Part shown: positions 12,928-25,684 of the stretch, in pieces
Layout: every line of letters starts with the position of its first letter
Numbering within the stretch: the stretch's first letter is position 1
IMG/VR virus record: IMGVR_UViG_3300002835_000416
Coordinates: 1-40,758 of that record
DNA: 40,758 bases
Source: a virus
Direction: 5' to 3' (one strand)
The notes under the pieces: generated by a model
The model's database searches: none
What the model was told of the DNA's origin: nothing
What the model saw: only the letters and a program-made list of their open reading frames with translations
Position numbers and translations under genes: made by a program

Positions 12928-12932
12928 GGACA

Positions 12933-13169: not shown

Positions 13170-13198
13170 GTTATTTCCTCATTGCGACTGACATTATA

Positions 13199-13227
13199 AT
13201 AATAAGACATCGCACTGGTAATGTCAA
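13199..13227 (-). promoter_or_regulatory. Sigma70-type promoter
   Basis: TTGACA (13222-13227), 17-nt spacer, TATTAT (13199-13204), 30 nt before the ATG of the 12936-13169 gene. The -35 lies just inside the upstream gene's stop region. Confidence 0.7.
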
Positions 13228-13394: not shown

Positions 13395-13578
13395 TTCTTT
13401 CGCCCTTTCCCTTTCCACGAGTCATCTCGGTCAATCGAACAAGACAGGTCGCCATCACGGTCAACCGCTCATTCTTGGTCAATCCAGTCCACTCGGCAAT
13501 CTCACGCCGCGTTCGACCACATCCAATGCAGTATCCACTTCCTTCGATACGACAAACCTTCACGCATGGAGTATCCAT
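13369..13578 (-). CDS. DUF1289-family cysteine-rich small protein
   Basis: 69 aa. DTPCVKVCRIEGSGYCIGCG followed by RTRREIAEWTGLTKNER is the DUF1289 signature, with four cysteines in CxxxC...CxxC spacing that likely bind metal. Bacterial relatives are short, uncharacterised proteins. The C-terminus is Lys/Arg/Gly-rich. It starts right after the stop of the oxygenase-like gene. Confidence 0.75.
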   Translation of the reverse strand: MDTPCVKVCRIEGSGYCIGCGRTRREIAEWTGLTKNERLTVMATCLVRLTEMTRGKGKGERNDKGRAGT

Positions 13579-13579
13579 C

Positions 13580-14224
13580 TTATGGACAAACGCTTCCCGT
13601 GATCGTCATGATGAACCTATCCTCGTAACCAAGATTAGCCGCAGTATGCAATTCATGCGTCTCCCATGTCACAATCGATCCCTGCTCCAGCCAATAAAAA
13701 GGCTTGTCCTCAACGATCAATACGTGCCCAAAGCGAGGCTTGGTCAATGTAATCCACAACCTGATGACATCAACGCCATTCATGGAATCCTTGGGCATGT
13801 ATTCCACATTACCATTATTGTCAACGAGATGATACTTGTAGTTGATGTAGTAATCCTTATGTGGAATGTGTATCTTTCCGGGAGTCGACCTCTTTACGTC
13901 GATGCGACAGTCTTCGCGGCGCAGCTTGAAATAATCAAGAATCTCCGACGGAACCAAACCATCAATCTCAGCCGACGTATAATTCGTATATCCAGATTCC
14001 TGGTGATTCTCGTAATTCTTTAAAATCAAATACTCGCGGTGATCGGCAAACATATCCATGTCCTTCACCGCCGAAGATTCCTTGATCCCACCCTTCGTGC
14101 GACTGATGAAGGCTGGAGTACCATCACGATCCCCGCGCGTCTCCTCAGCCATCTCCATGCTCATTGCACATGCAACCAACTTGTCGCAGGTTTCCTTGCT
14201 CATTCTCAAATCATGCAGCTTCAT
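13580..14224 (-). CDS. 2OG-Fe(II) oxygenase-like / aspartyl-hydroxylase-fold protein
   Basis: 214 aa. GKIHIPHKDYYINYKYHL (about 127-144) supplies an HxD motif and VTWETHELHTAANLGYEDRF (about 185-204) the distal His and a possible 2OG-binding Arg, with the strand pair FGHVLIVEDKPFYWLEQGSI between. This order fits the cupin-like double-stranded beta-helix of Fe(II)/2-oxoglutarate dioxygenases of the aspartyl beta-hydroxylase type. Substrate unknown. RBS GGAAGGA. Confidence 0.6.
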   Translation of the reverse strand: MKLHDLRMSKETCDKLVACAMSMEMAEETRGDRDGTPAFISRTKGGIKESSAVKDMDMFADHREYLILKNYENHQESGYTNYTSAEIDGLVPSEILDYFKLRREDCRIDVKRSTPGKIHIPHKDYYINYKYHLVDNNGNVEYMPKDSMNGVDVIRLWITLTKPRFGHVLIVEDKPFYWLEQGSIVTWETHELHTAANLGYEDRFIMTITGSVCP

Positions 14225-14441: not shown

Positions 14442-14452
14442 GTCACACTTCC

Positions 14453-14872
14453 TCAAAAATTGGCTTCATTCTTGAGTGGCACTATTGATACGCCATGAGG
14501 ATTCACATGCACCAAATCAACGCCTATGGAATAGTAGCCATTCGATTCACCATACCAACGAATCGTCACAGACCCCTTGATCGTAGCAAACTCATAGAAC
14601 GTCCACATATATGCATCATCTCTAAAAGCATCCGGATCAGAATCTTCTGAAGTGTCAGAAGTACGCTCCTCAGCACGAACCAAGGGCGAACCAACAAGAT
14701 CATCCAGATCCCCAACGATGTCCTCGACATAAACTCTCTCGCAGCAATCCTGGGAATGATACATGCGATAATGAGTACCGTCTACCATGTGAAAATGCAG
14801 CTCATCATCGCTGCCGATGCGTTCAATACGACCAAAGGTCTTTCCAACCATCTCAGAAACATTCACATACAT
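14453..14872 (-). CDS. DUF7448-like conserved phage protein
   Basis: 139 aa from ATG 14872 (RBS AGGAG, 8 nt). GKTFGRIERIGSDDELHFHM, then YRMYHSQDCCERVYVEDIVG and DLDDLVGSPLVRAEE, form a motif set seen in many phages and bacteria with adjacent cysteines. C-terminal half is beta-rich. Function unknown. Confidence 0.7.
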   Translation of the reverse strand: MYVNVSEMVGKTFGRIERIGSDDELHFHMVDGTHYRMYHSQDCCERVYVEDIVGDLDDLVGSPLVRAEERTSDTSEDSDPDAFRDDAYMWTFYEFATIKGSVTIRWYGESNGYYSIGVDLVHVNPHGVSIVPLKNEANF

Positions 14873-14897
14873 CAGATATTCTCCTCTCAATGAGTGT

Positions 14898-14926
14898 ATG
14901 ATAACATATAAGATTGGTAATGTACA
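14898..14926 (-). promoter_or_regulatory. Possible promoter for the DUF7448-like gene
   Basis: TGTACA (14921-14926), 17-nt spacer, TATCAT (14898-14903). The -35 is weaker than elsewhere; the position and spacer match the other - strand promoters. Confidence 0.45.
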
Positions 14927-15026
14927 GGGAGAACTTAAAGGAATAAACTCAGAATTTGACGGGGGGTGTCAAAGTACGGGGTAGAACTTAACGGAATTCC
15001 ACCAGAAACTGACGGGGGGGCCAAAT

Positions 15027-15069
15027 CGTGCAGAATATACACAGAATACGTGCAGAATATACACAGAAT
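15027..15069. repeat. Two tandem 21-bp direct repeats
   Basis: The 21-nt unit beginning CGTGCAGAATATAC occurs at 15027-15047 and 15049-15069 with one base between. It might be a protein-binding repeat or a replication slip; no function can be assigned. Confidence 0.8.
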
Positions 15070-15179
15070 GCTTTTGCAGACCTCCACAGCGAAAAAATAG
15101 GCTAGCGTCTGAACCGGCATGGTCGCTAAAAGAGTGTCTACGCAAACCTGGTATATTTTTCGCCGCCGCGCCCCTAAGG

Positions 15180-15206
15180 CCTCCCCCGGCCGGCCGGAGG
15201 GGGGGA
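15180..15206 (-). terminator. GC-rich hairpin ending the GC-rich island
   Basis: CCTCCCCCGGCC pairs with GGCCGGAGGGGG. It lies downstream (on the - strand) of the last gene of the island. There is no strong T-run after it, so termination is only likely, not certain. Confidence 0.4.
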
Positions 15207-15255
15207 GGAGGAGCCCCCGCCCACCGGGGGGATGAGGTGTGCTGGTGTTCGAGGC

Positions 15256-15372
15256 TTACTTGCTGCGCCGGCGCTCCATGATATATCCGGCGACCATCAC
15301 GACAGCGAAGCCCCAGCCGGCGAGCAGCACGGTAGCCCCAATGGTGTGCGCGAGGAAGGTTGCGAGGTTCAT
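15256..15372 (-). CDS. Small single-span membrane protein
   Basis: 38 aa, MNLATFLAHTIGATVLLAGW followed by a second hydrophobic run and a basic C-terminus (MERRRSK). RBS AAGGGATGATC 4 nt before ATG. It follows the AAA+ gene by 12 nt and is probably co-transcribed. Function unknown. Confidence 0.6.
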   Translation of the reverse strand: MNLATFLAHTIGATVLLAGWGFAVVMVAGYIMERRRSK

Positions 15373-15384
15373 GGTGATCATCCC

Positions 15385-16290
15385 TTACTGGTTCATGACG
15401 TAAAGCGCGAGGCGAGCCCAGTTGCTGTCGGCGCCGTGGGCGTGACGGATCTTGGAGACCTGGATGAGGGTACGCAGCGAGAGGTTGCGAACCTTGGGCA
15501 GGTTCTCCTTGATCAGCTGGAGCGCGTCGGCCTTGACCTTCGCCGACATATCGGGCTGGAAGTCCTTGTCAGCCACGAGCTGAGCCATGCGCTCCAGCTT
15601 CTGGTCAGCGTTCATCGACAGGTCGACGCAGAGCGCGCGGGTACGCACGGCTTGGTCGAGCGAAGTCAGCGTGTGGTTGCTGATGAAGATGACGCCACCC
15701 TTGAATTCGAACGAGGTGGGGAGGTCGGAACCCTTGACCTCGGACTGCCAGCAGACGACACGCTTGGCATAGCTGTCGAGCGCAGCCTTCAGGAGGTTGA
15801 TCGCCGTCGCATCCTTCAGGATGCTGTCGCAGTCGTCAAAGATGATGACCCGATCCTGGTTCTCGAACAGCGTGCGGTACAGCGCATAGGGGGTCGAGTA
15901 GCCCTTGATCATGACGTACTGCTTGGTGGGCGCGACATGCACGGCCTCGGGCTCCAGGGAATTCACGAACCCGTTGGCAGCCAGAACCTTGCAGATGGTG
16001 TAGGTCTTGCCGATGCCACCCTCACCCGTGACGATGGCGGAGGGGGACTGGCCCTTGGCCACCATCTGCGCGAGGGCCTCAGTGAAGGCGAAGCGGTCGG
16101 CGACCGAGAACGAAAGGCCCGACGCGACCTCGTCGCGCGCGACCTCCTTGAGACCCGCGAGATGGGCCTTGAGCAGGCGCTTGGCGCGGTTCATGGACTT
16201 GGTCTTGGTCACGACCTTGCCGTCGGCCATCGCGACATACTTGCCACTTGTGCGGTCGAACGTGACGGAGGACTGGATGGTCTGGGACAT
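15385..16290 (-). CDS. AAA+ family ATPase
   Basis: 301 aa. Walker A GEGGIGKT and Walker B RVIIFDDCDS are clear, with ISNHTLTSLDQAVRTRALCV giving sensor-1 and an arginine-finger-like segment. The C-terminal helices (VRNLSLRTLIQVSKIRHAHG) fit an AAA+ lid. The start at 16290 (MSQTIQ) has the AAGGA Shine-Dalgarno; a start at 16350 would be leaderless. It could remodel DNA or protein complexes. It is the largest gene of the GC-rich island. Confidence 0.75.
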   Translation of the reverse strand: MSQTIQSSVTFDRTSGKYVAMADGKVVTKTKSMNRAKRLLKAHLAGLKEVARDEVASGLSFSVADRFAFTEALAQMVAKGQSPSAIVTGEGGIGKTYTICKVLAANGFVNSLEPEAVHVAPTKQYVMIKGYSTPYALYRTLFENQDRVIIFDDCDSILKDATAINLLKAALDSYAKRVVCWQSEVKGSDLPTSFEFKGGVIFISNHTLTSLDQAVRTRALCVDLSMNADQKLERMAQLVADKDFQPDMSAKVKADALQLIKENLPKVRNLSLRTLIQVSKIRHAHGADSNWARLALYVMNQ

Positions 16291-16356
16291 GGAGGGATCC
16301 TTCTGAGAGGTGGCGGAGAGGGTGGAGGCCTTGGTGGATCGCTTGATCATGTGGTC

Positions 16357-16385
16357 AGTATAGGCGGCTTCCCGGGAATTGTCAA
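16357..16385 (-). promoter_or_regulatory. Promoter cassette copy 1
   Basis: TTGACA (16380-16385), 17 nt, TATACT (16357-16362), driving the AAA+ gene. The TGA inside the -35 box is the stop codon of the 16382-16570 gene. Confidence 0.85.
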
Positions 16386-16570
16386 GGGCCTATTTTGGGC
16401 CGCGGCACGGCCAACTGTACCGCGTCCTCCCCTCCATCCAGGAAATGGGCAATCGCGTTCCCATCCTGGTCGCCAAACAGGAGCACGTTATGCTTGGCAC
16501 ACAGGGCGCTAAGCTTGGCGACGAAGGCCGCGCGGGACTTGGGGGTCGATTTCCTGGTGGCCTTGGTCAT
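16382..16570 (-). CDS. Small basic hypothetical protein
   Basis: 62 aa from ATG 16570, placed 6 nt after the AAGGAGA of the cassette; the in-frame ATGATCACC upstream is part of the leader. Lys/Arg-rich N-terminus (MTKATRKSTPKSRAAF), then an alpha/beta-looking AKHNVLLFGDQDGNAIAHFL. The last residues PKIGP are encoded by the next gene's promoter cassette. Confidence 0.6.
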   Translation of the reverse strand: MTKATRKSTPKSRAAFVAKLSALCAKHNVLLFGDQDGNAIAHFLDGGEDAVQLAVPRPKIGP

Positions 16571-16597
16571 CGCTGTCTCCTTGGTGATCATGAGGTC

Positions 16598-16626
16598 AGT
16601 ATAGGCGGCTTCCCGGGAATTGTCAA
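16598..16626 (-). promoter_or_regulatory. Promoter cassette copy 2
   Basis: TTGACA (16621-16626), 17 nt, TATACT (16598-16603), then AAGGAGACAGCG and ATG 16570. Nearly identical to copies 1 and 3. Confidence 0.85.
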
Positions 16627-16910
16627 GGGCCTATTTTGGGCCACCTACGCACGTCGTGGCGCGCGACCTCGGCGGCCATGCCCGCCTCGCCGAGGGGCAG
16701 CTCGAGGATAACGTACCTCTGGCAGTCGGGGGTGATGTGGCTGCCGACGCCCCTCGACAGCCACTTCCACTGGGCCTCGGCCTCCTCCATGAGGTCATAG
16801 ACCCCGAGGACGGTCGCGCGGCTGTCGCGGGTGTACAGCGGCCTGGTGTCGAGGAGAACCCATCTGGGATCAAGTCTGGCATCAAGCGTGCGGGTGGTGG
16901 CGTCGGTCAT
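16623..16910 (-). CDS. Hypothetical protein
   Basis: 95 aa from ATG 16910. Contains DPRWVLLDTRPLYTRDSRAT and YDLMEEAEAQWKWLSRGVGS. Ends PKIGP with its TGA inside the -35 of copy 2. No family recognised. Confidence 0.6.
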   Translation of the reverse strand: MTDATTRTLDARLDPRWVLLDTRPLYTRDSRATVLGVYDLMEEAEAQWKWLSRGVGSHITPDCQRYVILELPLGEAGMAAEVARHDVRRWPKIGP

Positions 16911-16937
16911 TCCGGTCTCCTTGGTGATCATGAGGTC

Positions 16938-16966
16938 AGTATAGGCGGCTTCCCGGGAATTGTCAA
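16938..16966 (-). promoter_or_regulatory. Promoter cassette copy 3
   Basis: TTGACA (16961-16966), 17 nt, TATACT (16938-16943), upstream of the 16623-16910 gene. Confidence 0.85.
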
Positions 16967-16975
16967 GGGCCTATT

Positions 16976-17212
16976 TCAGTTCTTGGTCTCCTTCAGCTCG
17001 ACCTCGAGCGCGAGACGCTCTTCGGCGGCGCGCCTTTCCGCCACGGCGCGCGCCTTCGCGGCGGCGCGCCTTTCCGCCAGCGCGGCGTCATGCGCAGCGA
17101 GCGGATCCATGCGGAGGCGCTTGACCTCGCGCTGTAGCGCCTTGTTCTGGCGCTTCAGAGCGGCGATCTGTGCATCCTTGCACGCCAGCTGCTCCATCTG
17201 GTACTTGACCAT
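16976..17212 (-). CDS. Coiled-coil protein, Ala/Arg-rich
   Basis: 78 aa from ATG 17212 (GAGG Shine-Dalgarno; ATG 17218 is an alternative). A long helix from QLACKDAQIAALKRQNKALQ through two copies of an AERRAA(A/E) segment. It lacks its own cassette and follows the 17224-17481 gene closely, so the two form an operon; both contain heptad helices and may interact. Confidence 0.55.
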   Translation of the reverse strand: MVKYQMEQLACKDAQIAALKRQNKALQREVKRLRMDPLAAHDAALAERRAAAKARAVAERRAAEERLALEVELKETKN

Positions 17213-17223
17213 CTTCATCTCCC

Positions 17224-17481
17224 TCACATATATCCGCCGGTAGCGTCGGAGAACCACTTCCAGTCCTTTTCCGACTTCTGCTTCAGGCGCTCGACCTCGC
17301 GTTCCAGCACCTGGACGTGGGCGCGGAGGCGGTTGATCTCATCCACCAGAGGGTTCACATCCTCGACCTTTACATAATCGCCCTCTTCCACAGGCACCTC
17401 GACGAGGAGCCCTATATAGCCATCATAGTCGCAAGCCAGATCCCACCGCTGGGGCATCTGGACGGTGGTGGCGTCGGTCAT
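17224..17481 (-). CDS. Hypothetical protein with C-terminal coiled coil
   Basis: 85 aa from ATG 17481. An acidic N-terminal half (VEVPVEEGDYVKVEDVNPLV) precedes a leucine-rich helix DEINRLRAHVQVLEREVERL. The upstream MITKEIA codons are cassette leader and are excluded. Confidence 0.6.
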   Translation of the reverse strand: MTDATTVQMPQRWDLACDYDGYIGLLVEVPVEEGDYVKVEDVNPLVDEINRLRAHVQVLEREVERLKQKSEKDWKWFSDATGGYM

Positions 17482-17508
17482 CGCTATCTCCTTGGTGATC
17501 ATGTGGTC

Positions 17509-17537
17509 AGTATAGGGCATCCTTGACCTAAAGTCAA
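17509..17537 (-). promoter_or_regulatory. Promoter cassette copy 4 (variant -35)
   Basis: TTGACT (17532-17537), 17 nt, TATACT (17509-17514). The spacer differs from copies 1-3 and includes a second TCAAGG-like stretch. Confidence 0.8.
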
Positions 17538-17598
17538 GGGCCTATCTTGGTTAGCTGCGCGTCAGCCAGTCCTGGAAATCCAGGCGCTCCTTTTCGAA

Positions 17599-17937
17599 CT
17601 ACTTGGTCATGCGCTCGACCTTGCGCTCCAGCGCGGCGATCTTCGCATCCTTGCGAGCCAGCTGCTCCTTCTGGTACTGCAACATCTGCCTGGTGTACTC
17701 ATCCCACTCCCTCGTCGTCGGCGGCGAGGCCTTGCGGCTCAGATTCGGCATCTTGGTCTTGGTCTTGGTCATGCGCTCGACCTTGCCCGCCAGCGCGTCA
17801 ATCTTCGCATCCTTGCGCGCCAGCTGCTCCTTAGTGTACTGCACCATCTGCCTGCTGTACTCATCCCATTCCCTCTGACTCGGGGGCGAGAGGCTTGGCG
17901 CGCGCATCTTCGGCATCTTGGTCTTGGCCTTGGTCAT
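17599..17937 (-). CDS. Coiled-coil protein made of two tandem copies, possibly cut by an amber codon
   Basis: 112 aa from ATG 17937. Two near-identical halves of about 55 residues, each with TKMP, REWDEY(S/T)RQM and KEQLARKDAKI followed by a KVERMTK heptad, show an internal gene duplication. After the TAG at 17599-17601 the frame stays open for FEKERLDFQDWLTRS and ends at TAA near 17553, so the amber may be a recent nonsense change in a longer protein. Confidence 0.65.
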   Translation of the reverse strand: MTKAKTKMPKMRAPSLSPPSQREWDEYSRQMVQYTKEQLARKDAKIDALAGKVERMTKTKTKMPNLSRKASPPTTREWDEYTRQMLQYQKEQLARKDAKIAALERKVERMTK

Positions 17938-17964
17938 TCCGGTCTCCTTGGTGATCATGTGGTC

Positions 17965-17993
17965 AGTATAGGCGGCTTCTTGGACAATGTCAA
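17965..17993 (-). promoter_or_regulatory. Promoter cassette copy 5
   Basis: TTGACA (17988-17993), 17 nt, TATACT (17965-17970), followed by AAGGAGACC and ATG 17937. Confidence 0.85.
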
Positions 17994-18015
17994 GGGCCTA
18001 TCTAGCGCGAACCCC

Positions 18016-18267
18016 TTATGCGGCGCAGCGGAACTGATACTTGCCGAAGGCGAGGGGCTTCAGGTACCCCTTGTGAGCCAGCTCCGAGCAGGAAACCTTG
18101 GCGTACTGCGGGCGCTTGAACCCCTCTTCGGCGAGCCACAGCTCGACGGTGGCATACCCGATCACGGCGCTCGGGCGCGCCTTGAAGTAGGCGATCACGG
18201 CGACATCCATGTCGGTAAGACCTTCGATACGACGGGGGCGGGGGGCAGTCATCTGGATCTTGGTCAT
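18016..18267 (-). CDS. Small winged-helix-like protein
   Basis: 83 aa. DMDVAVIAYFKARPSAVIGY, then VELWLAEEGFKRPQYAKVSC and SELAHKGYLKPLAFGKYQF, are spaced like the helices and wing of a winged-HTH domain, preceded by a Pro/Arg-rich arm. This suggests a DNA-binding regulator, by inference only. RBS AAGGAG. Confidence 0.55.
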   Translation of the reverse strand: MTKIQMTAPRPRRIEGLTDMDVAVIAYFKARPSAVIGYATVELWLAEEGFKRPQYAKVSCSELAHKGYLKPLAFGKYQFRCAA

Positions 18268-18297
18268 CGCTGGCTCCTTGTTTCCGATCTTGATACC

Positions 18298-18326
18298 AGT
18301 ATAGGTGGCTTCCCGGACAATGTCAA
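18298..18326 (-). promoter_or_regulatory. Promoter cassette copy 6
   Basis: TTGACA (18321-18326), 17 nt, TATACT (18298-18303); leader switches to the ATCGGAAACAAGGAG form. Confidence 0.85.
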
Positions 18327-18335
18327 GGGCCTATC

Positions 18336-18653
18336 TCAGGCCACCTGGAGCACCTTGTCGGGATGACTGATCTTGCCATCCCACTTCAGCTGGTCGCGTT
18401 CGAACTGGCTCAGGTAGTCGTCGGCCTCGACCGACCAGGAGATGATGTACTCCCGCCAGTAGTGGTCGTCGGCCTCCACCTGCGGCCGCAGGGTGTCGAC
18501 CAGCGCGGTCAGATCGGCGTTCAGGTCGACGCCGGGCACCTTGTACTCCGAGCCACCCTTCGGCTTCCAGTACTGCGGGCACTCGCCCTCGCCCTCCCAG
18601 GCATGCGCGCCATAGTTTTCATAGACCTGGGTCTGGATCACAAGCATCGCCAT
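18336..18653 (-). CDS. Conserved phage protein (VIQTQVYENYGAHAW family)
   Basis: 105 aa from ATG 18653. VIQTQVYENYGAHAWEGEGE and CPQYWKPKGGSEYKVPGVDL are a pattern repeated in many phage small proteins of unknown role. Longer upstream frame is promoter/leader sequence. Confidence 0.7.
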   Translation of the reverse strand: MAMLVIQTQVYENYGAHAWEGEGECPQYWKPKGGSEYKVPGVDLNADLTALVDTLRPQVEADDHYWREYIISWSVEADDYLSQFERDQLKWDGKISHPDKVLQVA

Positions 18654-18685
18654 GTCGCTGTCTCCTTGTTTCCGATTCTGGTACC

Positions 18686-18714
18686 AGTATGCCAGGCCTC
18701 TGGGCAATTGTCAA
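18686..18714 (-). promoter_or_regulatory. Promoter cassette copy 7
   Basis: TTGACA (18709-18714), 17 nt, CATACT (18686-18691). Confidence 0.8.
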
Positions 18715-18757
18715 GGGCTGATTCGGTGGCGTCGGACGCCACCTTCTCAGAAACCCT

Positions 18758-18919
18758 TTATTCCTCGTCGTAGGTGGGGAACAGCTCGTTCTGCTCAGCC
18801 ATCTTGCCGACATCGCGATCCGACATCCACATCAGACACGCGCGGATCACAGCGTCCTTGTCGAGGACGCCATCCTCGATCAGCTCCAGCAGGGTGTTGG
18901 TGTTCTGACGAACCGTCAT
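18758..18919 (-). CDS. Small acidic hypothetical protein
   Basis: 53 aa from ATG 18919: MTVRQNTNTLLELIEDGVLD, DAVIRACLMWMSDRDVGKMA, acidic end. No family recognised. Confidence 0.55.
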   Translation of the reverse strand: MTVRQNTNTLLELIEDGVLDKDAVIRACLMWMSDRDVGKMAEQNELFPTYDEE

Positions 18920-18948
18920 CTCTGTCTCCTCTTTCCGATCTTGGTACC

Positions 18949-18977
18949 AGTATATGCTATCCCTGGACAATTGTCAA
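18949..18977 (-). promoter_or_regulatory. Promoter cassette copy 8
   Basis: TTGACA (18972-18977), 17 nt, TATACT (18949-18954), then the palindrome TGGTACCA and AGAGGAGACAGAG before ATG. Confidence 0.85.
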
Positions 18978-19007
18978 GGGCCTAAATTGCCCAGGGATTT
19001 CAAGGGC

Positions 19008-19748
19008 TTAGGCGGCGCGCACGAACCCGGTCGTGTCACGCTTCGCCTTCCCCTTCGCCTTCAGCCCGACGACAACGCCCACCGGATCCAGGAACCGCAG
19101 ATCCGTCTCGTCGCCGTCGATCACCGAGCGACCCATGAAGGTGGCGGGCAGCTTGCCCTTGAACACCGCAGCGACGTTCAGACCAGACGCCCACGCAGCC
19201 AGGTCGTTGTTCTCGGCCAGCGAGAACGTCAGACGATAGTTCGCGGGGAGCGCCTTGCGGTTGACCAGCTTGGTGTAGTCATAGAATTGCACGGTCGGGA
19301 ACATCTCCATGATGTTCGCGTGACCATCGACCTCGACGGCCTCCCAGCGGATGTCCGACGTGCCATTGAGGCGGAACACCGGGATCAGGCCCTGGCGCTC
19401 GGCATACGCGATGCCAGCGGCAATCTCCTTGACCAGCTGAGCCATGAAGGACGCGCGATCCTGGAAGAACCACACGGTCTTGGCGATGCGCGCCGCCTGG
19501 ATCACGTTCGGCACCGTCACCTCGCCATGACGCGCGGCCACCTTGACGGCCTTGCTGTTCGGGATGCCACCACGACCAGCCGTATTCAGGCACGCCAGCT
19601 TGCAGCCGTCGGTCGCCATCGCGCAGACATTGTAGCCCGACACCGACGCCGGAGCGAGGTGAAGGATGAAGGTGATGTAACCCCTCTTGGTGCCCTTCAG
19701 GATCTTGGGGTTCCCTTTTGTCAGAAGCATCTTCGGTCGAACAGTCAT
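19008..19748 (-). CDS. Gp88-family protein
   Basis: 246 aa from ATG 19748. GNPKILKGTKRGYITFILHL, SGYNVCAMATDGCKLACLNT with AGRGG, and FYDYTKLVNRKALPANYRLT followed by FSLAENN match the Gp88 family first seen in mycobacteriophages. The four cysteines around CAMATDGCKLAC suggest a metal or Fe-S centre, reminiscent of radical or nuclease-like folds, but no activity is established. Confidence 0.7.
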   Translation of the reverse strand: MTVRPKMLLTKGNPKILKGTKRGYITFILHLAPASVSGYNVCAMATDGCKLACLNTAGRGGIPNSKAVKVAARHGEVTVPNVIQAARIAKTVWFFQDRASFMAQLVKEIAAGIAYAERQGLIPVFRLNGTSDIRWEAVEVDGHANIMEMFPTVQFYDYTKLVNRKALPANYRLTFSLAENNDLAAWASGLNVAAVFKGKLPATFMGRSVIDGDETDLRFLDPVGVVVGLKAKGKAKRDTTGFVRAA

Positions 19749-19772
19749 CTCTGTCTCCTTCATTCTGGTACC

Positions 19773-19800
19773 AGTATACACGGTTACCAGGAATTGTCAA
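19773..19800 (-). promoter_or_regulatory. Promoter cassette copy 9 (16-nt spacer)
   Basis: TTGACA (19795-19800), 16 nt, TATACT (19773-19778), driving the Gp88-like gene. Confidence 0.8.
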
Positions 19801-19871
19801 GGACTAAAATTGTCAATGGAATCAAAGAGTTAGCGGGAAATGCAAAGATTGCATAGCAGCTATGCGAAAAG

Positions 19872-20087
19872 TTATGTCTTTTTGCTTGTCTGAAGACGAT
19901 TGAAAACATCTTCGGCGAAGATTTCTTCCTTGATTTCTTTTACCAACACCCGCTTGCCATTTACAGACCAAGCAGCTTTGGCAGTCCAATGATCCTTAAA
20001 TGCTCGAATTGCTTCCGTGTCCGAAGCGGGAACAGGAGTGATCTTCATCCTGCCGTTCGGATGTTTTATGTAATACACGACCGTCAT
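19872..20087 (-). CDS. Small hypothetical protein
   Basis: 71 aa from ATG 20087: MTVVYYIKHPNGRMKITPVP, AIRAFKDHWTAKAAWSVNGK, then an acidic helix. Less GC-rich than its neighbours, so probably from another source. No family recognised. Confidence 0.55.
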   Translation of the reverse strand: MTVVYYIKHPNGRMKITPVPASDTEAIRAFKDHWTAKAAWSVNGKRVLVKEIKEEIFAEDVFNRLQTSKKT

Positions 20088-20117
20088 CGCTGTCTCCTTC
20101 ATTCCGATCTTGGTACC

Positions 20118-20146
20118 AGTATGCCAGGCTTCCTGGCAATTGTCAA
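20118..20146 (-). promoter_or_regulatory. Promoter cassette copy 10 with internal palindrome
   Basis: TTGACA (20141-20146), 17 nt, CATACT (20118-20123). The spacer holds GCCAGG-AAG-CCTGGC (20123-20137). Confidence 0.85.
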
Positions 20147-20155
20147 GGGACTATC

Positions 20156-20341
20156 TCAGGCCGCGTCGCACTCAACCTTCACCAGCTCGGTGCCCATGAT
20201 GGAGGGATGCTCTGCGGTGATATAGTGACGCGCCGGCTCCACCTTTGACACCACTTCATCCACATCAGCATCCTTGCTGATGATCATGGCGAAAGTGACA
20301 TAGACCACGCGCGGTGATGGACTGGTCTTCTGATTGATCAT
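20156..20341 (-). CDS. Small hypothetical protein
   Basis: 61 aa, MINQKTSPSPRVVYVTFAMI then SKDADVDEVVSKVEPARHYI. RBS AAGGAGACGG. No family recognised. Confidence 0.55.
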   Translation of the reverse strand: MINQKTSPSPRVVYVTFAMIISKDADVDEVVSKVEPARHYITAEHPSIMGTELVKVECDAA

Positions 20342-20371
20342 CGCCGTCTCCTTGTTTCCGATCTTGGTAGC

Positions 20372-20400
20372 AGTATGCCAGGCTTCCTGGCAATTGTCAA
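20372..20400 (-). promoter_or_regulatory. Promoter cassette copy 11 with internal palindrome
   Basis: TTGACA (20395-20400), 17 nt, CATACT (20372-20377); same GCCAGG-AAG-CCTGGC spacer as copy 10. Confidence 0.85.
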
Positions 20401-20426
20401 GGGCTTACTTGGCGCCCTTGACGGCA

Positions 20427-20702
20427 TCATGCATTTGAAATGTCTGGATGCTGTGTTCCTATACCAGCACAGAACAGACGAAATCCACCACCCGTATCCA
20501 CATGGATCGACAACTCATTGACAAGCCAGCCCGTGGAATCCGTCAGCGCCTCGACCAGCGGCTCATCCGACAGGTCAAGGATCATCCCCTTGACCACCTT
20601 TGCCGTATCCTCGGTGAGAAACTCGTCGCCATTGACGGTGCTGATCTCGCCCGTGTCATAGTCCACGTAGACAGTCACCGGGATGGTCACTTGAACACGC
20701 AT
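20427..20702 (-). CDS. Chimeric protein: small early protein with a pstS-derived C-terminus
   Basis: 91 aa from ATG 20702. The first part (MRVQVTIPVTVYVDYDTGEI, FLTEDTAKVVKGMILDLSDE) is an ordinary small early protein. The last 22 residues, TGGGFRLFCAGIGTQHPDIS plus NA, are identical to PstS residues 64-85 and come from a 67-nt insert or conversion. After the chimeric TGA the sequence reads GCC GTC AAG GGC GCC AAG TAA in another frame, probably the original C-terminus. Likely altered or inactive. Confidence 0.7.
   Translation of the reverse strand: MRVQVTIPVTVYVDYDTGEISTVNGDEFLTEDTAKVVKGMILDLSDEPLVEALTDSTGWLVNELSIHVDTGGGFRLFCAGIGTQHPDISNA
20429..20495 (-). repeat. 67-nt ectopic copy of pstS
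   Basis: 65 of 67 bases match 10514-10580 inside pstS, in the same orientation. The two differences are both purine transitions (G to A on the + strand). The piece is AT-richer than its surroundings. Confidence 0.92.
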
Positions 20703-20731
20703 CTCTGTCTCCTCTTTCCGATCTTGATACC

Positions 20732-20760
20732 AGTATGCCAGGCTTCCTGGCAATTGTCAA
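20732..20760 (-). promoter_or_regulatory. Promoter cassette copy 12 with internal palindrome
   Basis: TTGACA (20755-20760), 17 nt, CATACT (20732-20737); palindromic spacer; its -35 overlaps the stop of the 20757-21086 gene. Confidence 0.85.
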
Positions 20761-21086
20761 GGGCCTATCTTGGTCAATTGTTCCGCAAGGTCAACCCGAA
20801 GGCGAACGTTGAACACCCGCAGCTTCAGCTCGGGGTCCTTGGATACAAAGTCCACCCACAGCACAACACGCTCCTCCGAGCGATGCTCCTTCACCAGCTT
20901 GAACCACAGCTTCCGACCCGTGCGATGGGACTCCATGAAGAACCCCCACTGGCCATCGCGATACTGAAGACGATGTCGTGAACCATCCGGCAGCGCCTTC
21001 TCCAGCTCCGAGGCCTCGGCCGTGAACATTCCATCGGTCTCGGTCTTGTTCCAGGTGAACAGCTTGCTCGAAAGAACCAGATCCAT
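20757..21086 (-). CDS. Hypothetical protein, paralogue of the 29243-29512 product
   Basis: 109 aa from ATG 21086. SKLFTWNKTETDGMFTAEAS, GFFMESHRTGRKLWFKLVKE and VVLWVDFVSKDPELKLRVFN. The F.W.K and F...SH.TG....F..V spacing recurs in the 29243-29512 protein, so both probably share a fold. Ends TKIGP in the next cassette. Confidence 0.6.
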   Translation of the reverse strand: MDLVLSSKLFTWNKTETDGMFTAEASELEKALPDGSRHRLQYRDGQWGFFMESHRTGRKLWFKLVKEHRSEERVVLWVDFVSKDPELKLRVFNVRLRVDLAEQLTKIGP

Positions 21087-21116
21087 CTCCGTCTCCCTCT
21101 TTCCGATCATGATCCC

Positions 21117-21145
21117 AGTATAGGCGGCTTCCTGGACAATGTCAA
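21117..21145 (-). promoter_or_regulatory. Promoter cassette copy 13
   Basis: TTGACA (21140-21145), 17 nt, TATACT (21117-21122); -35 overlaps the stop of the 21142-21387 gene. Confidence 0.85.
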
Positions 21146-21387
21146 GGGCCTATTTTGCCCTCATGCACCAAAATACCAGCACCTGCACCCCTCTGCGTAT
21201 CGATCACATGGGACGATTCGTGCAAATACCATTCTTCGCGCTGCCAGTCCTCGGCTTCAGGATCAACGAGGTTGTTTGCAACCTTGATCGCCTCCCGCTT
21301 GGAGCCAAAGCTGCACTTGAAGTCTTTCCATCCACCAAGCGCGGGGCCCAAGGTGGCAAACACCAGATACCGCTTGACCTTGACCAT
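21142..21387 (-). CDS. Conserved short phage protein (LVFA..GGWKDF family)
   Basis: 81 aa from ATG 21387, which shares a base with the upstream stop (TGATG). KRYLVFATLGPALGGWKDFK followed by CSFGSKREAIKVANNLV resembles a widespread small phage family with a YLVFA...GGW.DF...F opening. Ends GKIGP inside the next cassette. Confidence 0.6.
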   Translation of the reverse strand: MVKVKRYLVFATLGPALGGWKDFKCSFGSKREAIKVANNLVDPEAEDWQREEWYLHESSHVIDTQRGAGAGILVHEGKIGP

Positions 21388-21557
21388 CAACCAGCCTCCA
21401 CCTGATCTGCCACCTCATCGGTGTATAGGAAAGCCAGAGCCTTCCACACCGAGTCGTGGACGTTGAAATGCTCGCGAAGACGAGTGTATACATCAGAGAA
21501 CCAATGCTCATCCCCACGGTCTTCGGCATACTTTGCAGCCCGCTTCAGATAGTCCAT
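21387..21557 (-). CDS. Small helical hypothetical protein
   Basis: 56 aa from ATG 21557 (RBS AAGGAGACGG). MDYLKRAAKYAEDRGDEHWF, then a DVYTRLREHFNVHDSVWKAL helix. First gene of a coupled pair behind a long structured leader. Confidence 0.55.
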   Translation of the reverse strand: MDYLKRAAKYAEDRGDEHWFSDVYTRLREHFNVHDSVWKALAFLYTDEVADQVEAG

Positions 21558-21574
21558 CACCGTCTCCTTCATTC

Positions 21575-21765
21575 CAACGTTAGTTCTGGGGGCCTCACAG
21601 GTGCACCTGGAGGCCTAACCGACGTTCCCCTAGACAGGATTCTTCCCCATACCAGGGACACTACCTGCATTTCCCACTTCTTAGGCGAGCGTCCTTCTTG
21701 GACGACTAGGGCACCGGCTGTCGCCGGGGTCGGCAGGGCTTTCGCCCGCCCAATCTCATCGTGTT
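21575..21765 (-). ncRNA. Long structured leader between promoter copy 14 and its gene
   Basis: About 190 nt lie between TATACT and the GAATGAAGGAGAC of the 21387-21557 gene, whereas other cassettes have about 30. The insert has self-complementary blocks: GGGCGGGCGAAAGCCCTGCC, CCGGCGACAGCCGG, and GGCCTC-AGGTGCACCT-GAGGCC, plus GCCTAA pairing with TTAGGC. It might be a riboregulator, a small RNA or an inserted element. One frame is open but lacks an ATG near the promoter; an ORF starting MRLGGRKPC is only 17 codons. Confidence 0.45.
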
Positions 21766-21768
21766 CTC

Positions 21769-21797
21769 AGTATAGTGGGCCCTCGACCTATTGTCAA
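21769..21797 (-). promoter_or_regulatory. Promoter cassette copy 14
   Basis: TTGACA (21792-21797), 17 nt, TATACT (21769-21774), upstream of the long leader. Confidence 0.8.
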
Positions 21798-21810
21798 GGG
21801 CCCTTCTACA

Positions 21811-22455
21811 TCACTCGTCAGCCAGCTTCGGCGACTTGTCCGTCTGGATCCGCAGGAAGTCCGGAATCTCCAGCAGGTCATTCGCATCCTTCGGAGGAGT
21901 CACCTCATCCGACACCCGCTTGACCTTCACGGGGCCACGCGGAAGCGCCGCAGCCTTCTTCGTCGGCACCGTAGCAGTCGCAGCCAGCTCGGCCTTGATC
22001 ATGTCGGTGACCGACGGCTTCGGAGTCGCCACAGGCGCCATCTCCGGGTTCTCCGCGACGACCTTCGCGATCCGAGCATTGGACGCAGCGTGCAGATCCT
22101 TCGCCGGCGCCTTCGCCTTCGCCTTCGCAGCAGCCTTCACGACCGCCTTGCGCGTCGCCTTCGCCTTCGGGTTGACCTTGCGGAACAGCGGCCCACCCGT
22201 CTTGGTCTCAGGCTTCCACGACTTGAACTTGTCCACATTGACCAGTCGCAGCGTCTCGGCCTCCTTGGCACGGGCGGTCTTGATCACCGCACCAGCCTTC
22301 ATCAGCTCGATCTCAGCACCCGCCAGATACTTGGCGCGAGCCACATACTTGTGCATATTCCACCACTCGAGACCGGGAAGCTCCGCCTTGAGATCTGCCA
22401 TCGTCATCGCCTTGCCAGACTTCAGAGCCTGGAGTACCATCTCATAGTTACGCAT
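21811..22455 (-). CDS. Ala/Lys-rich DNA-binding-like protein
   Basis: 214 aa from ATG 22455 (RBS AAGGAAAG). The N-terminal 70 residues (MRNYEMVLQALKSGKAMTMA, DLKAELPGLEWWNMHKYVAR) look like a winged helix. The middle (KAKATRKAVVKAAAKAKAKA) is histone H1-like. A second segment, SVTDMIKAELAATATVPTKK, precedes a Pro-rich end. A nucleoid-associated or host-chromatin-mimicking role is plausible but unproven. Confidence 0.55.
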   Translation of the reverse strand: MRNYEMVLQALKSGKAMTMADLKAELPGLEWWNMHKYVARAKYLAGAEIELMKAGAVIKTARAKEAETLRLVNVDKFKSWKPETKTGGPLFRKVNPKAKATRKAVVKAAAKAKAKAPAKDLHAASNARIAKVVAENPEMAPVATPKPSVTDMIKAELAATATVPTKKAAALPRGPVKVKRVSDEVTPPKDANDLLEIPDFLRIQTDKSPKLADE

Positions 22456-22511
22456 CAGTCTTTCCTTTCCATCCAAGCGGCTTTGCCGCGAATCGTTCAG
22501 CGTATGATACC

Positions 22512-22540
22512 ATCTTACTGGGTATCCGACCAATTGTCAA
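22512..22540 (-). promoter_or_regulatory. Promoter cassette copy 15 (weaker -10)
   Basis: TTGACA (22535-22540), 17 nt, TAAGAT (22512-22517). Confidence 0.65.
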
Positions 22541-22549
22541 GGGCCTATT

Positions 22550-22768
22550 TTACCCAGCGTTTTCAAGGCTTTGCCGAGCCCGGATGAAGCGCGGATCACG
22601 CATCAGCTCCTGCAGCACCGCCGGATGCTTTCGCGCGAGACTAGCCAGCCAGGAGGCCATGTAGCCGAATCCATACGCCCTGGTCTCCGCCGGCGACCAT
22701 CCGGTAGGGCCCTCATCATGCACTACCTGGACAAGCGTCGCCATGAGCTGTTCGTGGGTGAGATCCAT
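22550..22768 (-). CDS. Small hypothetical protein
   Basis: 72 aa from ATG 22768 (GGAG, 6 nt). MDLTHEQLMATLVQVVHDEG, then GWSPAETRAYGFGYMASWLA; helical. No family recognised. Confidence 0.55.
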   Translation of the reverse strand: MDLTHEQLMATLVQVVHDEGPTGWSPAETRAYGFGYMASWLASLARKHPAVLQELMRDPRFIRARQSLENAG

Positions 22769-22793
22769 CACCTTCTCCATCGTTTCTGATACC

Positions 22794-22822
22794 AGTCTAC
22801 CCGGCATCCTGGCAATTGTCAA
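22794..22822 (-). promoter_or_regulatory. Promoter cassette copy 16
   Basis: TTGACA (22817-22822), 17 nt, TAGACT (22794-22799). Confidence 0.75.
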
Positions 22823-22852
22823 GGGCCTATTTTACCCAGCAAATGCAAGGGC

Positions 22853-23281
22853 TTACGCCGCCCTTGCACTCGCCACCAGCTTGTACGGCTTGCCCGGCTT
22901 GCCGATCTTGATGTGGATGTACCAGCCGACATTGTTGCCCCAATTGCCATCATTCATCGCATCGCGCAGCTCCATCAGCGCCTTACGGCACTTGCCGGTG
23001 TGCTGCGACTGAAGGTGGTACACACTCTGGGCCAGGTGCAGCGCCGCCGCATCCATGTAGCCATCACGGCGCAGCTGCGTCGCAATCTGATCAAAGCGAT
23101 TCTGAGGCGCCTGCTGCAGCACCGCCACAGCGTCGCCGATGAAGTCCAGTGGCCCCTCGGTGATCGTCAGCGTGATCGAATGGGGCGACGTGCGCAGCGT
23201 ACCCTTCAGCCGGTACTTGGCTAGCGCCGCCTTGATGCCGGGCGCCAGCTCGGCCTTGATCGTCTGGTTCATGAACGCCAT
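22853..23281 (-). CDS. Conserved phage protein (GNWxNNxGWYIHIKIGKP family)
   Basis: 142 aa. KAALAKYRLKGTLRTSPHSI followed by TLTITEGPLDFIG, and near the C-terminus MNDGNWGNNVGWYIHIKIGK. This N-terminal KY..KGTL...HSITLTI and C-terminal NW..N..VGWY motif pair is shared by a phage family of unknown function. RBS GGAGAAC. Confidence 0.65.
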   Translation of the reverse strand: MAFMNQTIKAELAPGIKAALAKYRLKGTLRTSPHSITLTITEGPLDFIGDAVAVLQQAPQNRFDQIATQLRRDGYMDAAALHLAQSVYHLQSQHTGKCRKALMELRDAMNDGNWGNNVGWYIHIKIGKPGKPYKLVASARAA

Positions 23282-23312
23282 GTCTGTTCTCCGTGTTTCC
23301 GACTATGATCCC

Positions 23313-23341
23313 AGTCTATACGGTGTCCTGGCTATTGTCAA
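23313..23341 (-). promoter_or_regulatory. Promoter cassette copy 17
   Basis: TTGACA (23336-23341), 17 nt, TAGACT (23313-23318), the most upstream copy of the 15-23 kb block. Confidence 0.75.
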
Positions 23342-23487
23342 GGGCGCTTCTGAAACCCTTGTGAATGACCGGTTCCTGGCGCTTTCCATGGTCTCAGAGT
23401 CTTCCCAATCTTTCCTGGAAACGCTACTTTGTGCATCGACATATGCGGAATTCTTTATATGCTCTGAACAGGCCTATTTGGTCGATA

Positions 23488-23673
23488 CTAGGTCTTTATG
23501 TCTATCTGGAATATAGCCATGAATCCAGACTTGACGCAGACTTGATCCCAGACTTTATAATAGACTTCATCCAAGACTTGACCATAGACTTGACCATCAT
23601 GGACTTGATCATTGACTTGATCATAGGCTTTATCTCTGACTTGAAGATAGACTTGGTCTTTGACTGATTTCAT
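23488..23673 (-). CDS. Tetrapeptide-repeat protein, last of array 1
   Basis: 61 aa. After eleven or so QV tetrads it reads DGQV (an in-frame extra residue) and ends with a unique tail CVKSGFMAIFQIDIKT instead of the DKARTxP end, because the array stops here. About 145 nt downstream (23342-23487) hold no gene. Confidence 0.6.
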   Translation of the reverse strand: MKSVKDQVYLQVRDKAYDQVNDQVHDGQVYGQVLDEVYYKVWDQVCVKSGFMAIFQIDIKT

Positions 23674-23843
23674 TGTTTGGTTCTCAATACTTGATACAAG
23701 ACTTGACTCTCGACTTGACTCTCGACTTGATCCCAGACTTGATTCCAGGCTTGATTCCAGACTTGATCCCAGACTTGATGTCTGACTTGATGTCTGACTT
23801 GACCATAGACTTGATTTCTGACTTGGTTTATGACTGATTTCAT
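23670..23843 (-). CDS. Tetrapeptide-repeat protein
   Basis: 57 aa, MKSVINQVRNQVYGQVRHQV opening, two ESQV tetrads near the end and terminus VLRTKQ. ATGA overlap at both ends. Confidence 0.65.
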   Translation of the reverse strand: MKSVINQVRNQVYGQVRHQVRHQVWDQVWNQAWNQVWDQVESQVESQVLYQVLRTKQ

Positions 23844-24022
23844 GGTTCGGTTCTCGCTTTATGCCTGACTTTATCCAAGACTTGTCCTCTGACTTGATCC
23901 CAGACTTGACGATAGACTTGATCTCTGACTTGATCTTGGACTTGAATCCAGACTTGATCATAGACTTGATCTTGGACTTGAATCCAGACTTGATCCCAGA
24001 CTTGACGCCTGACTGGTTTCAT
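23840..24022 (-). CDS. Tetrapeptide-repeat protein
   Basis: 60 aa, MKPV start, uninterrupted tetrads including two WIQVQDQV doublets, ending HKARTEP. Confidence 0.65.
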   Translation of the reverse strand: MKPVRRQVWDQVWIQVQDQVYDQVWIQVQDQVRDQVYRQVWDQVRGQVLDKVRHKARTEP

Positions 24023-24080
24023 TGTTTGGTTCTCGCTTTATTCAAGACGTTACGCATGACTTCCTGCCAGCTGCCAGACT

Positions 24081-24221
24081 TTATACGAGTCTGGCGCGCC
24101 AGACTTGATCGCCGACTTGATCCCAGACTTGCTCCGTAACTTGATGCAAGACTTGATGTCTAACTTGATCCAAGACTTGACGCCTGACTTGATCTCGGAC
24201 TTGGATTATGACTGATTTCAT
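24081..24221 (-). pseudogene. Truncated tetrapeptide-repeat member
   Basis: 46 aa. Tetrads run to GDQVWRARLV and a TAA stops the frame early. The following 58 nt to the next unit are diverged (they include CTGGCAGCTGGCAGGAAG) and no longer connect by an ATGA join. Confidence 0.6.
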
Positions 24222-24400
24222 GGATTGGTTCTCAATTTGGACAAGACTTGACGCCCAACTTGAATCCAGACTTGAGACCTGACTTGATTCCGGACTTGAT
24301 CATTGACTTGACCATAGGCTTTATCTCTGACTTGATTCCAAACTTGATCATGGGCTTGAAAATAGCCTTGATCTCTGACTTGGTTTTTGACGGATTTCAT
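24218..24400 (-). CDS. Tetrapeptide-repeat protein
   Basis: 60 aa; contains degenerate tetrads DQGY, FQAH and DKAY among the QV units, ending SKLRTNP. Confidence 0.65.
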   Translation of the reverse strand: MKSVKNQVRDQGYFQAHDQVWNQVRDKAYGQVNDQVRNQVRSQVWIQVGRQVLSKLRTNP

Positions 24401-24579
24401 GATTTGGATCTCGCTTTATCCAAGACTTTACGCGAGACTTGAACATAGACTTGACGATAGACTTGAACCACGACTTGATCCCAGACTGGTTCCTCAACTT
24501 GGTCCAAGACTTTACGCCTGACTTGACCATAGGCTTTATCTCTGACTTTATTCCTGACTTGATTTATGACTGATTTCAT
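24397..24579 (-). CDS. Tetrapeptide-repeat protein
   Basis: 60 aa with several Lys-for-Gln tetrads (RNKV, RRKV, SRKV) and EEPV; ends DKARSKS. Confidence 0.65.
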   Translation of the reverse strand: MKSVINQVRNKVRDKAYGQVRRKVLDQVEEPVWDQVVVQVYRQVYVQVSRKVLDKARSKS

Positions 24580-24721
24580 GGATTGGTTCTCGCTTTATGC
24601 CAGACTTGACGCGGACTTGATCACAGACTTTATAATAGACTTCATCAAAGACTTGACAATAGACTTGATCTCGGACTTGATCATAGACTTGATCTCGGAC
24701 TTGGATTATGACTGATTTCAT
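24548..24721 (-). pseudogene. Frameshifted tetrapeptide-repeat member
   Basis: 57 aa as read, but after CDQVR the frame switches to VKSGIKREPIHEISHKSSQE and overruns into the next gene by 32 nt. A single missing base within GTCCGCGTCAAGTC accounts for it; restoring one base recovers an HKARTNP-type end with the usual ATGA join at 24576-24579. Confidence 0.65.
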
Positions 24722-24924
24722 GGATTGATTCCCAATTTGGACAAGACTTTACGCCCAACTTGATGCCAGACTTGAGACTTGACTTGATCTTGGACTTGAA
24801 TCCAGACTTGACCATAGACTTGATCTTGGACTTGATGTCTGGCTTGATTCCGGACTTGATCATTGACTTGATCCCAGACTTTATCCCTGACTTGATCTCT
24901 GACTTGTTTTCTGACGGATTTCAT
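24718..24924 (-). CDS. Tetrapeptide-repeat protein
   Basis: 68 aa, one of the longest; tetrads include RNQARHQVQDQV and KSQV; ends SKLGINP. Confidence 0.65.
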   Translation of the reverse strand: MKSVRKQVRDQVRDKVWDQVNDQVRNQARHQVQDQVYGQVWIQVQDQVKSQVWHQVGRKVLSKLGINP

Positions 24925-25103
24925 GGTTCGGTTCTCGTTTTATCCCAGACTTTATCCCAGACTTGATCCTCGACTTGATCAGAGACTTGATTCCGAACTT
25001 GATTCCAGATTTGACGATTGACTTGAAGCTGAACTTGATCCCTGACTTGATCTGTAAATTGATCCGTGACTTTATACCAGACTTTGTTTCTGACTGGTTT
25101 CAT
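24921..25103 (-). CDS. Tetrapeptide-repeat protein
   Basis: 60 aa, MKPV start; Phe and Ile replace Val in TDQF and RQIW; ends DKTRTEP. Confidence 0.65.
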   Translation of the reverse strand: MKPVRNKVWYKVTDQFTDQVRDQVQLQVNRQIWNQVRNQVSDQVEDQVWDKVWDKTRTEP

Positions 25104-25282
25104 TGTTTGTACCTGACTTTATGCAAGACTTGAATCCAGACTTGACCATAGACTTGATCTTGGACTTGATCCAAGACTTGACCATAGACTTGATCCCAGA
25201 CTTGATTCAAGACTTGATCATCGACTTTATCGCAGACTTGATCCAAGACTTGATCCAAGACTTGACGCCTGACTGATTTCAT
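25100..25282 (-). CDS. Tetrapeptide-repeat protein
   Basis: 60 aa; carries a DQVCDKVDDQV stretch, the only Cys-containing tetrad in this member; ends VRYKQ. Confidence 0.65.
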   Translation of the reverse strand: MKSVRRQVLDQVLDQVCDKVDDQVLNQVWDQVYGQVLDQVQDQVYGQVWIQVLHKVRYKQ

Positions 25283-25473: not shown

Positions 25474-25481
25474 GGATTGAT

Positions 25482-25664: not shown

Positions 25665-25684
25665 GGTTTGGTACTCGCTTTGGA

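Follow-up and report, generated by a model that had tools for sequence, protein, structure and literature searches.

The window analyzed here is the whole of a 40.8-kb virus record that encodes T4-type gp32 and gp59, PhoH, and an exonuclease-family protein. T4-like phages recombine heavily, and the window's gp32, gp59, and exonuclease-family protein belong to that kind of recombination machinery. The closest relatives of its gp32 come from a marine virus, Pelagibacter phage HTVC008M, and cyanophages (~56 to 65% identity), and a megablast search with the first 25 kb of the window against named phages gave no match. The virus looks lytic and of the T4 type, and its host is probably an alphaproteobacterium, our best guess from sequence. 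A permuted tmRNA of the alphaproteobacterial type lies at 6027-6382, and the repeated promoter described below, CTTGAC-N17-CTATAC(T), is one letter off a Sinorhizobium meliloti sigma70 query, CTTGAC(N17)CTATAT (PMC2573895).

The minus strand of this T4-like phage window carries 22 near-copies of AAATAGGCCCTTGACA-N17-TATACTG followed by a short leader, here called cassettes, 17 of them at 16.35 to 23.35 kb and five at 28.9 to 31.95 kb. The cassettes and the three cargo genes discussed most below are as follows.

31911-31955, minus strand: cassette; -35 starts at 31945; ATG at 31910, 6 nt past the -10, opens the gene
31690-31774, minus strand: cassette; -35 at 31764; gene 31030-31689
30573-30635, minus strand: cassette; -35 at 30625 holds the TGA stop of gene 30622-31014; gene 30249-30572, with an in-frame ATG at predicted +1
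29513-29575, minus strand: cassette; -35 at 29565; gene 29243-29512, with an in-frame ATG at predicted +1
28897-28962, minus strand: diverged cassette; -35 at 28952; gene 28570-28896, with an in-frame ATG at predicted +1
23282-23351, minus strand: cassette; -35 at 23341; gene 22853-23281
22769-22832, minus strand: cassette; -35 at 22822; gene 22550-22768
22456-22550, minus strand: cassette; -35 at 22540; gene 21811-22455
21558-21807, minus strand: cassette with long structured leader; -35 at 21797; gene 21387-21557
21087-21155, minus strand: cassette; -35 at 21145 holds the stop of ORF 21142-21390; gene 20757-21086, with an in-frame ATG at predicted +1
20703-20770, minus strand: cassette; -35 at 20760 holds the stop of gene 20757-21086; gene 20427-20702
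20342-20410, minus strand: cassette; -35 at 20400; gene 20156-20341
20088-20156, minus strand: cassette; -35 at 20146; gene 19872-20087
19749-19810, minus strand: cassette with 16-nt spacer; -35 at 19800; GP88-family gene 19008-19748 (PF17338)
18920-18987, minus strand: cassette; -35 at 18977; gene 18758-18919
18654-18724, minus strand: cassette; -35 at 18714; gene 18336-18653
18268-18336, minus strand: cassette; -35 at 18326; gene 18016-18267
17938-18003, minus strand: cassette; -35 at 17993; gene 17599-17937, with an in-frame ATG at predicted +1
17482-17547, minus strand: cassette (TTGACT); -35 at 17537; gene 17224-17481, with an in-frame ATG at predicted +1; promoter type found before the ATPase gene in relative L027
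16911-16976, minus strand: cassette; -35 at 16966; gene B, with an in-frame ATG at predicted +1
16571-16636, minus strand: cassette; -35 at 16626 holds the stop of gene B; gene A, with an in-frame ATG at predicted +1
16351-16395, minus strand: cassette; -35 at 16385 holds the stop of gene A; ATG at 16350, at predicted +1, opens the ATPase gene
15385-16350, minus strand: cargo gene, AAA ATPase-like (phrog_1250); relocated in relative L048
16382-16570, minus strand: cargo gene A; precedes gene B in L027, follows it in the window; protein ends in PKIGP and the stop
16623-16910, minus strand: cargo gene B; follows gene A in L027, precedes it in the window; protein ends in PKIGP and the stop

The exact pattern TTGACA-N15-19-TATACT occurs 11 times in the window and not once in 100 dinucleotide-preserving shuffles. 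When -10 variants (CATACT, TAGACT, TACACT) and one TTGACT are admitted, 21 cassettes carry CCTTGAC, and a 22nd, more diverged copy lies at about 28947-28952. The array reported in an earlier note on this DNA is thus real, including its count of at least 21 near-copies; that note had left unstated that all copies lie on the minus strand. Its description of the control elements as identical goes too far: the copies share the consensus caAaATaGGCCCTTGACAaTtgCCaGGAagCCgcctATACTG and fall mainly into two leader subtypes, GACCACATGATCACCAAGGAGACAGCG-ATG and GGTAYCAAGATCGGAAACAAGGAGACAGCG-ATG, and outside both hexamers their mean identity is 57%, against 25% when letters are shuffled within copies. 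Long identical stretches are confined to some copies, those at 16357, 16598, and 16938 having 43 bases identical in all three and about 62 in two of them. The leader motif AAGGAGAC is confined to the minus strand, where nine of its 11 occurrences fall within cassette leaders; AGGAGAC, GGGAGAC, or GGAG takes its place in other copies. The proposed arrangement in single-gene units describes most copies, but at least two ORFs precede the next cassette after those at 21797, 31764, 30625, 29565, 28952, and 17537. Most cargo genes have no known family, and the suggestion that they are of different origin is unsupported. An Rfam search with the long leader at 21558-21768 gave no convincing match.

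The cassette also reaches into the neighboring coding sequences. In five copies the TGA within TTGACA is the stop codon of the upstream gene, and because this stop sits in the cassette, four different proteins share the C-terminus KIGP, encoded together with the stop by AAAATAGGCCCTTGA or a close variant. On the other side, several otherwise differing proteins begin with MTDATT. The joint therefore appears to take in the closing codons of the upstream gene and the opening codons of the downstream one, which is what recombination within the repeat would lead one to expect. We found no published description of a cassette that supplies the ends of its neighboring coding sequences.

Gene order behind the cassettes in related phages

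A close relative, L027 (IMGVR_UViG_3300008448_001707), is 98.2% identical to the window over 4452-13584 and 91% identical over 14451-16395. In the direction of transcription the window reads B, A, ATPase and L027 reads A, B, C, ATPase, gene C being absent from the window, and the changes of partner are located at cassettes. The ATPase promoter in L027 is of the type that serves a different gene in the window (cassette 17537), and L027 differs further in its cassette sequences and in the end of gene A.

The more distant relative L048 carries 23 cassettes with a sequence flavor of their own and matches L049 letter for letter over 20.7 kb; the two come from long contigs (142 and 197 kb) in two metagenome data sets whose samples are possibly related. 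Genes at 27.4 to 31.9 kb and 13.4 to 14.2 kb of the window form colinear flanks in L048, with the exceptions of 31030-31689 and 30622-31014. Between these flanks, the eight shared core genes are permuted, from i j k l m n o p in the window (i being gene 22853 and p the ATPase gene at 15385) to i p j l o k n m in L048, and gene 31030-31689 has been relocated into the core. All keep their orientation, and each core gene in L048 stands behind its own cassette. In the 197-kb record, 17 of the 19 matches to the cassette pattern lie on a single strand within 72.5 to 84.3 kb, forming a 12-kb island. A peptide-pattern search of viral contigs with protein 31030-31689 found no relative, although a 46% homologue is present in L048. 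Because relatives carry the same genes behind such switches in another order, the cassettes look like gene-swapping joints. The predicted exchange of cargo at cassette boundaries is thus seen in both L027 and L048, and it is matched by an enrichment of breakpoints in seven pairs of related phages. Among 200 ends of DNA similarity in those pairs, 68 lie inside a cassette or no more than 25 bp away, with 26.4 expected for random places (2.6-fold), an enrichment exceeding that at gene starts without a cassette (42 against 30.8 expected; 1.4-fold).

Cassettes within the window are more alike (mean identity, 0.64) than those of orthologous genes in the window and L048 (0.56) or random cross pairs (0.51). 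The slight excess of orthologs over random cross pairs (permutation P = 0.014) implies that any exchange between copies has been incomplete. Homogenization is clearer in the window than in L048, where the mean (0.562) hardly differs from the value for ortholog pairs (0.559). In Mantel tests for local homogenization, the similarity of cassettes in the window did not drop with distance (P = 0.37), and in L048 it did. Similar repeats recur elsewhere: many loci with relatives of the cargo genes (e.g., L040, L174, L189, L197, and L034) have 5 to 26 repeated promoters on one strand, and each lineage has its own consensus, identity reaching 0.56 within a locus against 0.30 between loci. A 270-bp unit has moved between L174 and L185. 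The cassette sequence itself appears to be lineage specific, since a scan of viral contigs with the exact window pattern GGCCCTTGACA-N16-18-TANACTG gave contigs with one or two matches only and no arrays.

We consider it quite probable that these observations have a joint explanation, in which an early-type promoter cassette doubles as a recombination joint that shuffles small genes and possibly allows translation from the 5' end of the transcript. Each copy would be an early-type promoter read by the host primary sigma factor, and would provide the -35, the -10, the transcription start, the ribosome-binding site, the start codon, and often the stop of the preceding gene. With about 22 near-copies head to tail in one gene island, the cassettes could serve as short shared sequences for recombination, which would join, delete, insert, and reorder small genes with their expression signals unbroken. 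Exchange between copies would also keep the cassettes of one phage more alike than those of the same gene across phages. Homologous recombination had been put forward earlier as the means by which genes are swapped; the junctions at cassettes bear this out as to place, and as to agent they suggest it.

Alternatively, the cassettes might be just early promoters whose similarity is maintained by selection for binding of the host RNA polymerase and which were duplicated together with small genes, gene order being altered by illegitimate recombination at gene ends with only whole-gene products surviving, so that the repeats play no causal part. Repeated early promoters are common in phages (the 41-nt repeats of PAK_P1-like phages provide an example; PMC4309531), selection would tolerate junctions at gene ends, and the mild enrichment of breakpoints at cassette-free gene starts is in line with this view. 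We nevertheless regard it as unlikely, given the higher enrichment at the cassettes themselves, the placement of junctions inside the repeat by the KIGP tails and shared first codons, and the spacer, upstream, and leader positions, which have no known role in promoter strength and yet are conserved within a phage and different between phages. It is very improbable that the repeats are mainly operators through which a phage repressor or activator switches the small genes together, with shuffling as a by-product. Positions outside the promoter boxes are indeed conserved and some spacers contain palindromes (GACAATTGTC, CCAGG-N3-CCTGG), but the operator reading of these was rejected because they are not common to all copies, and they are absent from the otherwise equivalent cassettes of L048; moreover, the virus looks lytic (T4 type), and no regulator was identified. 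Finally, since all compared genomes are metagenome assemblies and two window cassettes share the ~62 identical bases noted above, single junctions could be wrong, but the chance that the differing gene orders as a whole are assembly artifacts of the repeats is close to negligible, because L027, with its other cassette sequences, other end of gene A, and extra gene C, is not a reordering of the same reads, L048 and L049 agree, and the pattern recurs in independent lineages, as in the L174/L185 unit.

In-frame ATGs at predicted transcription starts

Ten of the 22 window cassettes have an ATG precisely 6 nt past the -10, the usual start point of sigma70 transcription, and each of these ATGs is in frame with the gene. 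The ATGs at 31910 and 16350 open their genes, with no SD-led start nearby; from the others, the frame continues across the SD, where Lys-Glu or Arg-Glu is encoded, to an SD-led ATG 18 to 24 nt on. Leaders without a +1 ATG do not hold this distance to multiples of three. The relatives agree, the +1 ATG being in frame in three of three cases in L027 and five of five in L048. Across related loci, 1,572 distinct promoter-like sites have 155 ATGs at the +1 offset, against ~18 to 58 at other offsets up to 15, and 71% of those at +1 open at least 50 codons. The distance to the following SD-led start is in frame in 41 of 54 such leaders, compared with 170 of 505 leaders without the ATG (Fisher P = 2e-9). 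When one leader per locus is counted the effect is weaker (14 of 27; P = 0.036); the window's clade, L034, and L174 show it most strongly. RB49 has no excess of +1 ATGs (2 of 102 sites).

An in-frame ATG at the predicted +1 leads us to predict leaderless or dual translation starts. In about half of the copies, ribosomes could initiate on the transcript both at its 5' end and at the SD-led start. Sinorhizobium meliloti has 171 leaderless mRNAs with an AUG at the transcription start (PMC3616915). The phage arrangement resembles these in having its AUG at the transcription start, here a predicted one, and in an inferred host of the same class, the alphaproteobacteria. It differs in that the 5' AUG lies within a repeated promoter cassette and is usually followed by an in-frame SD and a second AUG. 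In our literature search, which was incomplete, we came across no phage whose repeated promoter cassettes are described as carrying a 5' AUG of their own. A bolder reading, to which we give slightly less than an even chance, is that the cassette is a complete expression socket: it would supply the stop to the gene upstream and, to the gene downstream, a promoter, a +1 start codon, an SD, and a second in-frame start, so that any ORF recombined in would be translated both leaderless and SD led, and this design would be common to a number of uncultured T4-like phages with lineage-specific sequences.

Terminators and comparison with known promoter repeats

A hairpin followed by T residues was found upstream of two of the 22 window cassettes (both weak, one inside coding sequence) and two of the 23 in L048, with shuffled maxima of 2 and 3, and a simple terminator scan of 15.2 to 33.7 kb gave 13 terminator-like sites against 16 in shuffles. 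The same hairpin scan on RB49 found GC-rich tetraloop terminators near seven of 52 promoters. A weak stem upstream of L048 cassettes (GCCC...GGGC-AATT) was discarded as inconsistent between copies. With no detectable terminators, read-through from cassette to cassette is expected and downstream genes would be served by several promoters; insulated expression of the units is not supported.

The original studies of the promoter early stem-loop (PeSL) are reportedly those of Arbiol et al. in 2010 and Comeau et al. in 2014, and in the former, small circular DNAs are said to be formed by exchange between neighboring PeSL copies. According to secondary descriptions (PMC4503421, PMC3950731), the PeSL is a composite promoter-terminator motif of T4-like phages such as RB49 and phi1. 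As far as those descriptions go, PeSLs and our cassettes have in common a repeated sigma70-like promoter, early in PeSLs and putatively early here, a location in variable, gene-dense parts of T4-like genomes, and shuffling between close relatives at the repeats. In the window there are 22 predicted promoters with boxes of the TTGACA-N17-TATACT type, the location in a variable region of a T4-like genome is indicated by gp32 and gp59 and by the 12-kb island of the 197-kb relative, and genes have been shuffled at the repeats in L027 and L048 relative to the window. The same descriptions give the PeSL a terminator half, and none is detectable in the window cassettes; hairpins do precede some promoters in some related lineages, as expected of PeSLs. 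The window cassette differs further in extending into both adjacent coding sequences and often having an ATG at the predicted start, unlike RB49 with its lack of an ATG excess. The comparison with mobile promoter elements of T4-like phages made earlier is therefore apt apart from the terminator half, and since that half is undetectable and the behavior is alike, we call the cassette a terminator-less PeSL variant.

Two other repeats are comparable. PAK_P1-like Pseudomonas phages have 41-nt repeats with a sigma70 promoter, TTGACA-N17-TAgAAT, in five or six copies per genome; like the cassettes, these have conserved surroundings, a putative early region, and clade-specific sequence, and they differ in their low copy number and in that cargo shuffling is not described in the part of the source drawn on here (PMC4309531). 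In the haloarchaeal virus HGTV-1, a promoter-like motif before most genes of one part of the genome has been proposed as a mediator of shuffling; this repeated motif is archaeal TATA-box-like with an inverted repeat, and is unrelated to the cassette in sequence and host (PMC3950731).

Two phages with 98% identity over a neighboring 9 kb thus differ in gene order at their promoter repeats, and the controlled breakpoint test carries the PeSL concept over to uncultured phages, with no need of the terminator half. For leaderless or dual initiation in T4-like phages, the ATG found in frame at the predicted start offers a sign that can be tested. If this sign is real, the annotated starts of many small phage genes would shift, and the cassettes would be an example of how a virus tolerates constant gene swapping.

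Cargo genes and a copied fragment

Behind the cassettes, the repeated promoter-plus-leader units, lie small cargo genes, and part of one gene from this region recurs elsewhere.

17599-17937, minus strand: cargo protein containing an internally duplicated segment
18336-18653, minus strand: small cargo protein, TQVYENYGAH...GEGECPQYWKPK
20431-20500, minus strand: 70-bp piece, 3' end of a cassette-region gene

The duplicated segment of the first protein, MTKxKTKMP...REWDEYxRQM...RKDAKI...KVERMTK, is present twice. Relatives of the second occur in at least 166 viral-contig stretches, many of which bear repeated promoters of their own; it is a widespread phage gene. The 70-bp piece recurs, with 96% identity, at 5569-5637 of the close relative IMGVR_UViG_3300008448_001707, a position corresponding to about 10.6 kb in the window; this is a stray copied fragment.

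A long cassette leader

21558-21768, minus strand: cassette leader of about 210 nt

This leader is predicted to fold strongly (-83.8 kcal/mol, z -2.45) and may possibly be a structured RNA; an Rfam search with it gave no convincing match.

Tandem repeat arrays and a terminator-like hairpin

23488-26659, minus strand: first tandem array of overlapping small ORFs
32147-33684, minus strand: second tandem array of overlapping small ORFs
33649-33667, minus strand: clear terminator-like hairpin, AGCGGCGAAAGCCGCTGTT-TTCTTTTG

The two arrays together contain some 25 ORFs that overlap one another and are roughly 46-76 aa long; these ORFs are made of a repeated 12-bp unit (GATCAAGTCTGG-like) and encode xQVx repeats such as DQVWDQVYGQV. 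Most begin with MKSV, and the start of most overlaps the stop of the preceding ORF as ATGA. Arrays of the same kind are present in four related loci (L048, L128, L129, and L130). The hairpin follows the gene at 33685-34548 and lies directly ahead of the second array.

A phage-encoded tmRNA

6027-6382, minus strand: permuted tmRNA of alphaproteobacterial type (Rfam RF01849 and RF04321; ARAGORN)

ARAGORN gives its tag peptide as ANDNYASEMALAA. The alphaproteobacterial type of this tmRNA serves as a pointer to the class of the host.
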